Source of the DNA: Halorhodospira halophila
GTDB lineage: Bacteria > Pseudomonadota > Gammaproteobacteria > Nitrococcales > Halorhodospiraceae
Direction: 5' to 3'
DNA: 44,847 nucleotides
Assembly: GCF_016653405.1 (NCBI RefSeq)
Contig: NZ_NHSN01000010.1
Location: 1 to 44,847 of the forward strand
The notes below the pieces were generated by a model that was given only the letters and a program-made list of their open reading frames with translations, did not search any database and had not been told where the DNA came from. Position 1 is the stretch's first letter, and every line of letters starts with the position of its first letter. Positions 20,742 to 25,624 of the stretch are shown here, piece by piece. The position numbers and the translations under genes are program-made.

Positions 20742-22316
20742 CTAGAGCCGCTCGCGGGCGATCTCGATATCCGCCTCGGCACGCAGGGCGCGGATCAGCG
20801 CCCGCACCTCGGAGTCCCCGGCCATGCGCTGGAGCTGTTGTTGCAGCTGCTCACGCTCCTGAGCCGAGAGGCCGTCCGGATCGCCGCGGCTGATCTCGTC
20901 CAGACGGAGCAGCGCCGCGGCCCCGTCCTCCAGCTCCACCCGGGCATGACCGCCCTCCTCTAGGGCGAACGCCTCGCGCACAACGGCCGCCGGGTGGCTG
21001 CGGTCGTCCCGATAGGCCTCCTCGACCGTGAAGCGTTCGACATCGAGCTCCTCGGCCAGCTCGTCCAACGACTCACCATCGCGCAGCCGGGTCATTAACT
21101 CCTCCGCCCGCTCCAGGGCAAGTTCGGCGGCATGCTCCTGGCGGATCTCCTCGCGGATGGAATCCGCCACCTCCTCCAGGGGCCGGGGCTCGGCCTCTCG
21201 GTGTTCCAGGAGCCGTACCACCAGGTAGCGGTCCTCGTCGGCGCGGATCAGGTCGCTGTTGTAGCCATACTCCAGCACATCCTCGCTGAACGCCTGCTCG
21301 ACGACCCCGGAAAGCTCGCCGATGCCCTCGCCGCCCTCGCGATCGATCCAGTCGCTGCTCCGGATCTCCAGGCCGAAGGTGTCGGCCAGCGGTTCCAGGC
21401 TGTCCGGCTGCTCAAAGGCAATATTGCCGAACTCATCGCCGGCCTCCATGAGCTCGGTGCCGTGCTGTTCGCGGATGTAGTCGGCCAGCAGCTCTTCGCG
21501 CACGGCATCGAAGGCCGGCGGGTCCTCGTCATCGCCGTAACGCTCGTCATAGCGCTCGCGGAGCGCATCATCATCCACTTCGACCTGATCACGCAGGGCC
21601 AGCGGACCCAGCTCGACGTACTCAAGGCGCACCGCCTCCGGGGCCATGTAGTCGTCGGTGTTGGCCTCGTAATGGGCCTCAACCTCGGCATCATCGACAC
21701 GAACCTCGTCGATGTAGCGCTCGGCGGCGAGCTCAAGGTAGCTGAAGCTGCGCGACTCGTCCTGCAGGCGCACCAGACGATCCAGCTGGGAGGGGGTGCT
21801 GATGCTGCTGGCGAACACGGCCTGCTGGAACTGATCGGCCTTAAGGTCCCGCCGGACCAGCTCCTCGTAGTCCTCCGGCGTCATGCGATTGCGCTCAAGC
21901 AGGGTTTGGTATCGACCCCGGGAGAACTGCCCGCCCTCGTGGAAGATCTCCTGGCTACGGATGGTCTGGGCCACCTCCTGATCGGTAACCCGCAATCCCT
22001 GGCGATCGACGTAGGCGTGCAGCAACCGCTCGTCGATGAGCTGCTCCAGGGCCTCGCGGCGCAATGCGGCAGCGTCGAAGGCGCCATCGGGAAGATCACC
22101 GCCGAACATCTCGCGCAGCTGCGCGCGCTGGCGCTCCACCGCCTGGTTGATCTGCGAGCGGGGAATCTCCTCGCCATCGACGCGGGCGACCACCGCGTCC
22201 TCGCGGCCACCACCGAAGTATTCGTAACCACCCATGAAGATGAACGGCAGGGCGATGAACCCGATGATGACCCACGCAATCCAGCCCTTGATGCCGTCAC
22301 GAATCGCCTGAAGCAT
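20742..22316 (-). CDS. ppiD: PpiD-like periplasmic chaperone lacking the parvulin domain
   Basis: This 524-residue protein resembles PpiD, a membrane-anchored chaperone at the SecYEG exit. It has one N-terminal transmembrane helix (about 11-30), a SurA_N-like chaperone domain (about 40-190), and a C-terminal region with DESLDELAEELDVERF and RAFALEEGG-type segments. E. coli PpiD is 623 residues. The missing part corresponds to the parvulin isomerase domain: after VEVDDDALRERYDERY the sequence passes straight to an acidic linker and DAVREELLADYIREQ. The protein is very acidic, consistent with a saline periplasm. It follows hupB and two tRNA genes, behind a terminator. Confidence 0.85.
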   Translation of the reverse strand: MLQAIRDGIKGWIAWVIIGFIALPFIFMGGYEYFGGGREDAVVARVDGEEIPRSQINQAVERQRAQLREMFGGDLPDGAFDAAALRREALEQLIDERLLHAYVDRQGLRVTDQEVAQTIRSQEIFHEGGQFSRGRYQTLLERNRMTPEDYEELVRRDLKADQFQQAVFASSISTPSQLDRLVRLQDESRSFSYLELAAERYIDEVRVDDAEVEAHYEANTDDYMAPEAVRLEYVELGPLALRDQVEVDDDALRERYDERYGDDEDPPAFDAVREELLADYIREQHGTELMEAGDEFGNIAFEQPDSLEPLADTFGLEIRSSDWIDREGGEGIGELSGVVEQAFSEDVLEYGYNSDLIRADEDRYLVVRLLEHREAEPRPLEEVADSIREEIRQEHAAELALERAEELMTRLRDGESLDELAEELDVERFTVEEAYRDDRSHPAAVVREAFALEEGGHARVELEDGAAALLRLDEISRGDPDGLSAQEREQLQQQLQRMAGDSEVRALIRALRAEADIEIARERL

Positions 22317-22416: not shown

Positions 22417-22493
22417 TGGCGGAGCGGACGGGACTCGAACCCGCGACCTCCGGCGTGACAGGCCGGCATTCTAACCAACTGAACTACCGCTCC
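22417..22493 (-). tRNA. tRNA-Asp (GTC)
   Basis: A 77-nt cloverleaf with acceptor stem GGAGCGG/CCGCTCC, anticodon GTC in loop CTGTCAC, T arm GGGTTCGAGTCCC and encoded CCA. It follows tRNA-Val and precedes the terminator at 22361-22387. Confidence 0.96.
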
Positions 22494-22540
22494 GTGATTA
22501 CGTCGATTATTGTAACAACTTTTTGCCGCTTGTCTACCCC

Positions 22541-22616
22541 TGGTGGGTGGTGAGGGATTCGAACCCCCGACATTCGCCTTGTAAGGGCGACGCTCTCCCA
22601 ACTGAGCTAACCACCC
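22541..22616 (-). tRNA. tRNA-Val (TAC)
   Basis: A 76-nt cloverleaf with acceptor GGGTGGT/ACCACCC, anticodon TAC in loop CTTACAA, T arm GGGGTTCGAATCCC and encoded CCA. It begins 16 nt after the hupB stop, so it is probably transcribed with hupB. Confidence 0.96.
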
Positions 22617-22632
22617 GAACCGACTAAGCCCG

Positions 22633-22905
22633 TTAGTTTATCGCATCCTTGAGCGCTTTGCCAGGCTTGAAACCCGGGACCTTCGACGCCGGGATGTTGA
22701 TGCTCTCGCCGGTGCGCGGATTCCGGCCAGTGCGGGCGGCCCGATCGCGCACGGTGAAGGTGCCGAAACCCACCAGGGTGACCTGATCCCCCTCGCGCAG
22801 GGCGTCGGTGACCGACTCGACCATGGCATCGACGGCGCGCGCGGCCGCGGCCTTGGAAAGATCCGCGGAGTCGGCTACCGCCTCGATTAGTTCACTCTTG
22901 TTCAT
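22633..22905 (-). CDS. hupB: DNA-binding protein HU (beta type)
   Basis: This 90-residue HU/IHF-family nucleoid protein begins [11 protein letters not shown] and has the DNA-binding arm signature [18 protein letters not shown], followed by [19 protein letters not shown]. It bends and compacts DNA without strong sequence specificity. Its place immediately after lon, on the same strand, is standard for gammaproteobacteria. A strong sigma-70 promoter lies about 210 bp upstream. Confidence 0.96.

Positions 22906-23161: not shown

Positions 23162-25624
<2,463 letters not shown>

Follow-up and report, generated by a model that had tools for sequence, protein, structure and literature searches.

A parvulin-less PpiD orthologue in Halorhodospira halophila and comparable excisions across Gammaproteobacteria

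The window analysed here, a stretch of 44,847 nucleotides from Halorhodospira halophila (NZ_NHSN01000010.1, positions 1–44,847), carries a ppiD-like open reading frame of 524 codons on the minus strand at 20742–22316, with no internal stops. Its product is 99 residues shorter than PpiD of E. coli K-12 (b0441, 623 residues), and an initial annotation, made from the sequence alone, had placed about 100 missing residues at the site of the parvulin isomerase domain. Is the domain truly absent, has it moved to another gene, how often has it been lost, and what kind of protein does the loss leave behind?

Orthology, locus and the missing domain

The membrane anchor, the SurA-like N-domain, the C-terminal region and the lon–hupB–ppiD locus identify the protein, as judged from sequence, as a PpiD orthologue. 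The anchor (about residues 12–30; 22227–22283, minus strand, as for all features of the locus given below) is a hydrophobic stretch recognized by eye that aligns with the anchor of E. coli PpiD. It is included in the N-domain (residues 1–163; 21828–22316), which matches Pfam SurA_N_3 with an E-value of 1.3e-52 and 178.4 bits (cut-off, 27.2). Two further blocks, C1 (residues 286–401; 21114–21461), which follows the parvulin position and forms the second part of the third domain, and C2 (residues 403–524; 20745–21110), which comprises the parvulin-related second domain and the final helix, match our own hidden Markov models (HMMs) with E-values of 1e-52 and 8e-45. E. coli PpiD gives 2e-36 and 7e-31 with these models, which include both the window protein and the E. 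coli sequence among their members. Together with the alignment, these matches bear out the earlier view that anchor, N-domain and C-terminal region are retained. The NCBIfam equivalog for PpiD-type peptidylprolyl isomerases (NF008054, PRK10788) matches in two stretches with 221.8 bits, below its curated value of 493.

The gene order in the window is clpX–lon–hupB–tRNA-Val–tRNA-Asp–ppiD, and the order lon–hupB–ppiD is common to the window and E. coli K-12. The conserved neighbors, both called as open reading frames, are a hupB-like (HU) gene upstream of ppiD (22633–22905) and lon (23162–25624), the source of the species tree used below. A tRNA-Asp (22417–22493) and a tRNA-Val (22541–22616), both on the minus strand, sit between hupB and ppiD in the window; in E. 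coli no annotated gene lies between the two.

The canonical parvulin domain (PF00639) is absent from the window PpiD, and the observation of the initial annotation is confirmed at the level of sequence. A Pfam scan with an E limit of 10, where the HMMER filters drop most matches above 0.1, listed neither PF00639 nor PF13616 in this protein. In the same scan PF00639 was found in three intact relatives (E-values of 1.8e-32, 1.1e-30, and 2.9e-34) and in E. coli PpiD (4e-14). PF13145 (Rotamase_2) exceeds its cut-off in the window PpiD through partial stretches (43.9 bits, best at residues 207–235). The gap in the alignment coincides with the parvulin domain and covers in E. coli numbering about residues 264–358 when read by eye or 276–358 by script on another alignment, so that its left edge varies with the alignment used.

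In an alignment with 19 relatives, E. coli included, the window protein and its close kin have a helix at residues 249–260, a short acidic loop and then the post-parvulin helix (269–284), and the AlphaFold2 (AF2) model likewise connects the two helices by a short loop. The alignment, a table of domain boundaries and the model agree in placing the excision site in this loop of eight residues (261–268; 21513–21536), a position occupied in relatives by a parvulin domain of about 100 residues. The window protein thus lacks the combination of PF00639 and active-site histidines by which we recognize a parvulin-type peptidyl-prolyl isomerase (PPIase), and, with the central PF00639 missing, we refer to it as a parvulin-less PpiD variant.

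Parvulin-like modules that remain

According to the initial annotation, a parvulin fold predicted within residues 230–400 would overturn the loss. Such a fold is indeed predicted. However, it belongs to the non-catalytic third domain of PpiD, which intact PpiDs have besides their true parvulin, and the loss therefore stands.

The evidence for this cryptic third domain (about residues 228–373; 21198–21635) comes from AF2, VIA-align, and hhalign. An AF2 run on window residues 198–402 from three sequences gave a best model of five with a pLDDT of 88.4 and a pTM of 0.70; the other four scored 54–70, and the model is for this reason used only beside profile evidence. A full-length AF2 prediction from three sequences reached a pLDDT of 46 and was set aside for fold calls. 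The best model runs strand, helices, short strand, helices, two strands, an order close to that of parvulins.

In VIA-align, residues 225–374 superpose on PrsA parvulins with Z 8.9 and an rmsd of 2.8 over 90 residues, and the match to the E. coli PpiD parvulin has Z 6.7 and an rmsd of 3.5 over 94 residues, where a Z below 8 may reflect a common arrangement. The top match is the PpiD–YfgM structure 8zht (Z 10.5, 156 residues, rmsd 9.9). Foldseek gave query-normalized TM-scores of 0.20–0.40 with large rmsd for the chaperone and PPIase rows, and the parvulin superposition depends on VIA-align rather than on Foldseek. The modules of PrsA and of Cj0596/PEB4-type foldases are true parvulins, whereas the module that matches them in the window protein is the degenerate third domain.

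Profile comparison with hhalign ties the remaining blocks to parvulins at 91% for the contiguous third domain and 97% for the second-domain half (block 392–500). The corresponding values of 43.2 and 56.4 compare with at most 16.1 and 12.1 in 30 column shuffles each, and reversed-profile controls gave 14.7 and 12.7. The third-domain half alone had a real value of 28.8, but at least one of its 30 shuffles showed a printed value as high as 132.8, probably a parsing error, and this comparison was set aside. Second and third domains match each other at 97%, a value that carries no shuffle control. Rotamase_2 spans the third-domain region as a single match in two other parvulin-less proteins of the family, from genomes G021 and G019 (whole-protein E-values of 1.4e-14 and 1.6e-8).

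For E. coli PpiD, an AF2 model in the literature is described as comprising four domains, named N/C, second, third, and parvulin; the last of these lies within the third, and the second and third share a fold (PMC9643414). On this basis the modeled residues 228–373 would correspond to the third domain, which has a parvulin-like fold and hosts the inserted parvulin in relatives. In our reading, a degenerate parvulin-like module hosts the parvulin as an insert, which would explain how the latter could be excised without harm.

The same evidence raises an alternative in which the third domain is itself a working prolyl-binding or isomerase site, kept or re-activated, so that the protein would be no pure holdase. 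The parvulin-like fold of the model and the profile match of the third-domain block and the next block to parvulins speak for it. Two histidines are typical of parvulin active sites, however, and by eye the window third domain has a histidine at neither position. Furthermore, both E. coli and the intact relatives have the same block next to a true parvulin, for which it is thus no replacement. We consider this alternative unlikely.

Distribution in the family and the class

A search at the level of the order gave a match in 51 of 54 genomes. Within the family of the window organism (12 genomes), nine carry a short PpiD and three a full-length one (G023, G028, and G029, 632–634 residues). The deletion of the window genome (G000) recurs in five others (G022, G024, G025, G026, and G027), which gives six genomes of the genus with proteins of 524–527 residues; the other short forms have 481–483 (G020 and G021) and 484 residues (G019). 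Pairwise comparison of eight excised genes from the genus left 21 of 28 pairs with dS below saturation; their dN/dS is 0.08–0.43, values that are rough in the several pairs with dS above 1. The reading frame is conserved and, by this sequence measure, under purifying selection.

The initial annotation had proposed a search for a separate parvulin elsewhere in the genome. Parvulins exist outside ppiD, but the PpiD domain has not been relocated to any of them. Each of the three intact family genomes has four PF00639 matches, eight excised genomes have three, and G024, which is 83% complete, has two. Movement of the domain to another gene is ruled out for this family by these counts. The three matches of the window genome are the two domains of a SurA of 427 residues and one NifZ–parvulin fusion. 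By eye, SurA alone among these proteins has an export signal. The fusion (L003:1348–2313; G000:C5 near 22428–22712) has 321 residues, with NifZ at 3–73 and the parvulin at 177–271, and is a NifM-like isomerase joined to NifZ.

A Lon tree rooted on E. coli places, from the outside inward, G019 (excised), G028 (intact), G020 with G021 (excised), G023 (intact), and the window clade (excised). Seven of its eight inner branches are starred, the exception lying within the window clade, and the excised state thus occupies three separate positions with every separating branch supported. The tree was computed without G027 and G029, with a partial G026 (29% of columns) and a cut E. coli Lon. Besides the lon gene next to ppiD, G028 (L049, G028:C224) and G029 (L046, G029:C280) contain an extra Lon-like stretch with 46–47% identity and one or two in-frame stops.

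Three losses within the family are the natural reading of this tree, and fit the sequences. One ancestral loss followed by two re-acquisitions (in G023 and in the line of G028 and G029) takes equally many steps, so that unweighted parsimony costs the same; moreover, the parvulin-domain tree cannot establish vertical inheritance of the intact domains, its support for joining G023 with G028/G029 being weak (32% of 200 bootstrap trees). However, the deletion edges differ among the excised groups, the intact genes share a contig with a nearby lon, just as in the other genomes, their cores follow the species tree, and an exact re-insertion at one hinge is unlikely. Re-acquisition therefore seems improbable to us, and we retain the reading of three losses.

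A survey of the class shows that the loss is no peculiarity of one genome. The N-domain profile matched in 316 of 369 genomes drawn from Gammaproteobacteria, and open-frame lengths were taken from 310 of these (G241, G410, G411, G416, G418, and G419 were left out). Short frames of up to 574 residues numbered 29, and we examined 27, among them the frame of the window; the other two are G169 (96 residues) and G329 (574 residues). A protein was counted as excised when it matched the N-domain and C1 HMMs and had no parvulin; C2 is also present in all but G057. By this measure 21 of the 310 PpiDs are parvulin-less, in 15 families, the window protein included. The least certain case is G331, with a weak C1 and a low-complexity insert. 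The other six short frames, of which five are contig ends and one is broken, were set aside; a parvulin is present in all but G351, which stops before it. Frames above about 600 residues received the domain test on a subset. The parvulin-less PpiDs of the 14 further families (L079 in G173, L080 in G287, L082 in G186, L088–L100, L102–L104, and L107) tend to be basic.

Most deletions remove the parvulin alone, and a second class (G019, G020/G021, family f35, and G167) takes flanking parts of the third domain as well. Full-length members, intact or decayed, co-occur with excised ones in families f1, f99, f109, f117, and f138. In a tree of 104 PpiD cores with the parvulin columns removed (29 excised, including all nine of the window's family, 3 decayed, and 72 with parvulin), the state changes 14 times, ten of these changes being forced by well-supported branches, whereas shuffled labels average 25.5. 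This tree is a quick one under a simple model, with many open forks and compositional bias, and its changes do not distinguish losses from gains. The apparently repeated loss across the class suggests that the parvulin is optional.

Excision stands at one extreme of a continuum, with apparently competent domains at the other and decayed ones in between. The 72 PpiD parvulins have both active-site histidines in 53 cases, one in 12, and none in 7; the intact sister form of the G023 type has both. E. coli is among the 7, and its parvulin is thus atypical of the sample. Three full-length proteins (L124 in G223, L114 in G147, and L115 in G267), in which the parvulin HMM is silent at 1e-5, were counted as decayed and possibly represent an intermediate stage before excision. 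In the PpiD of G268 (L165) a long low-complexity repeat of Glu, Ala, and Ser replaces the first half of the parvulin. PPIase activity has been reported for C. jejuni PpiD according to a review (PMC12428200); this report and the 53 of 72 parvulins that keep both histidines suggest that selection probably maintains the domain in most lineages.

Correlates of the loss and a probable translocon-side holdase

As initially described, the window protein is very acidic (pI 4.34; 24.2% Asp and Glu, 11.3% Lys and Arg, with 2 Lys). An adaptation to high salt, in which the parvulin is superfluous or can no longer be maintained in an acidic, halophilic periplasm, would agree with the pI of 4.2–4.7 of all nine parvulin-less PpiDs of the family. 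Yet 30 of the 72 PpiDs with parvulin have a pI below 4.7, and 16 of the 20 parvulin-less ones outside the family have a pI of at least 6, up to 10.15. The medians are 6.59 for the 29 excised proteins and 4.80 for the 72 with parvulin. A link between acidity and loss was rejected on this comparison. With most parvulin-less PpiDs outside the family neutral or basic, a tie to halophily or acidity is unsupported, and we regard the salt explanation as very unlikely.

A second proposal derives from an AF2Complex prediction, described in PMC9797188, in which DsbA docks in the parvulin pocket of PpiD; the parvulin would then be lost after the oxidative-folding pathway. A DsbB match above the family cut-off is missing from 6 of the 29 excised genomes, as this proposal would have it, but present in 23 of the 29, against 7 of 13 other genomes, and in all 12 of the family. 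No link between DsbB loss and excision is seen in these 29 and 13 genomes, and where DsbB is retained a dock for DsbA on the parvulin appears to be unnecessary. The docking idea was examined here through DsbB, as the profiles PF01323 and PF13462 did not resolve DsbA. We judge this route to be highly improbable. A PF01323 match is missing in G000, G020, G022, and G024 although DsbB is present, and the single PF13462 match of the window genome (G000:C25:229881–229976) is weak.

The excised genomes of the class sample are at most 2.1 Mb in size in 14 of 21 cases, and parvulin loss is possibly connected with genome reduction. That the window gene results from faulty annotation or assembly, or is a pseudogene in decay, has a negligible probability and is refuted at this locus, given that six genomes of the genus share the deletion, that the frame is open, and that dN/dS is low; support for an artefact is nil here, and the contig ends and broken frame of the survey concern six other short frames.

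What does the shortened protein do? A YfgM family match (E < 1e-26) is present in all 29 parvulin-less genomes and in 12 of 13 others, the matches of G118 and G225 carrying an internal stop. In the window genome the YfgM gene (PF09976, E 8.3e-47) lies at G000:C25:63735–64313. E. coli PpiD and the window protein have in common the anchor, the SurA-like N-domain, the C-terminal region, the locus, and a YfgM-type gene; they differ in that E. coli PpiD keeps a parvulin, with both active-site histidine positions lost in the alignment, whereas the window protein has no such domain. In E. coli, YfgM and PpiD are described as a unit at SecYEG (PMC9643414). The E. coli parvulin has been reported to be inactive (PMC2956729, PMC9797188), and reports on the prolyl isomerase activity of PpiD conflict, as noted in PMC2956729.

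The closest experimental counterpart is PpiD-deltaParv, an E. coli construct that, as reported by Matern et al. in 2010 (PMC2956729), complements in vivo, and in vitro prevents aggregation and is a better chaperone than the wild type. The same report describes lower cell levels and a slightly weaker complementation in one assay, which indicates that the domain is not entirely neutral in E. coli. Its cut runs from a natural EcoRV site at codon 251 to an engineered site near codon 355 (PMC2956729), and we located the natural site in the E. coli ppiD sequence. Construct and window protein have nearly the same cut, at codons of about 251–355 and 264–358, respectively, in E. coli numbering. The construct is engineered and less abundant in E. 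coli, whereas six sampled genomes of the genus encode the natural form.

SurA offers a further parallel. It is a soluble protein whose chaperone N-domain, also present in the parvulin-free construct SurA N-Ct, is related to that of the window PpiD, and the window genome encodes a normal SurA with two parvulins as well. The SurA chaperone module has been reported to work in vivo without PPIase activity (PMC2956729). In the open-access papers searched, we recognized no description of naturally parvulin-less PpiDs, and a term search of PMC11470409 for parvulin was negative.

Given the E. coli YfgM–PpiD unit at SecYEG, the function of PpiD-deltaParv, and the retention of YfgM, we take the window protein to be a translocon-side, YfgM-bound holdase without the accessory isomerase module, a PpiD orthologue from which the parvulin was cleanly deleted at the hinge. 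This reading we hold to be likely. The inserted parvulin would have been deleted from the hinge between two helices of its host third domain, a position at which the rest of the chaperone could fold as before. By analogy with E. coli, it is most likely still an inner-membrane-anchored protein that pairs with YfgM beside SecYEG. Emerging chains would be bound by the SurA-like N/C chaperone domain and the two remaining parvulin-like modules, and held without proline isomerization. The parvulin would be as dispensable here as in the E. coli construct, and the initial suggestion of a pure holdase agrees with the E. coli work and may describe this role. SurA would be the sole parvulin-type PPIase left in the periplasm of the species.

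More broadly, we propose with moderate confidence that PpiD consists of nested parvulin-like modules in a SurA-like shell. Only the innermost module would have isomerase chemistry, as an accessory insert that has been cut out at one hinge perhaps at least ten times in Gammaproteobacteria; the shell and the degenerate modules would hence account for the entire chaperone function at the translocon. If this is true, the name peptidyl-prolyl isomerase D designates a removable accessory. The natural parvulin-less PpiDs, with the gene and its YfgM-type partner kept, amount to a repeated evolutionary experiment with sharp edges. They may offer a direct route to separate the role of PpiD at the Sec exit from the contribution of its parvulin, and would make proposals such as the docking of DsbA in the parvulin pocket testable without engineered deletions. 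The interest of the window PpiD, a natural counterpart of E. coli PpiD-deltaParv, lies in this repeated, clean loss.
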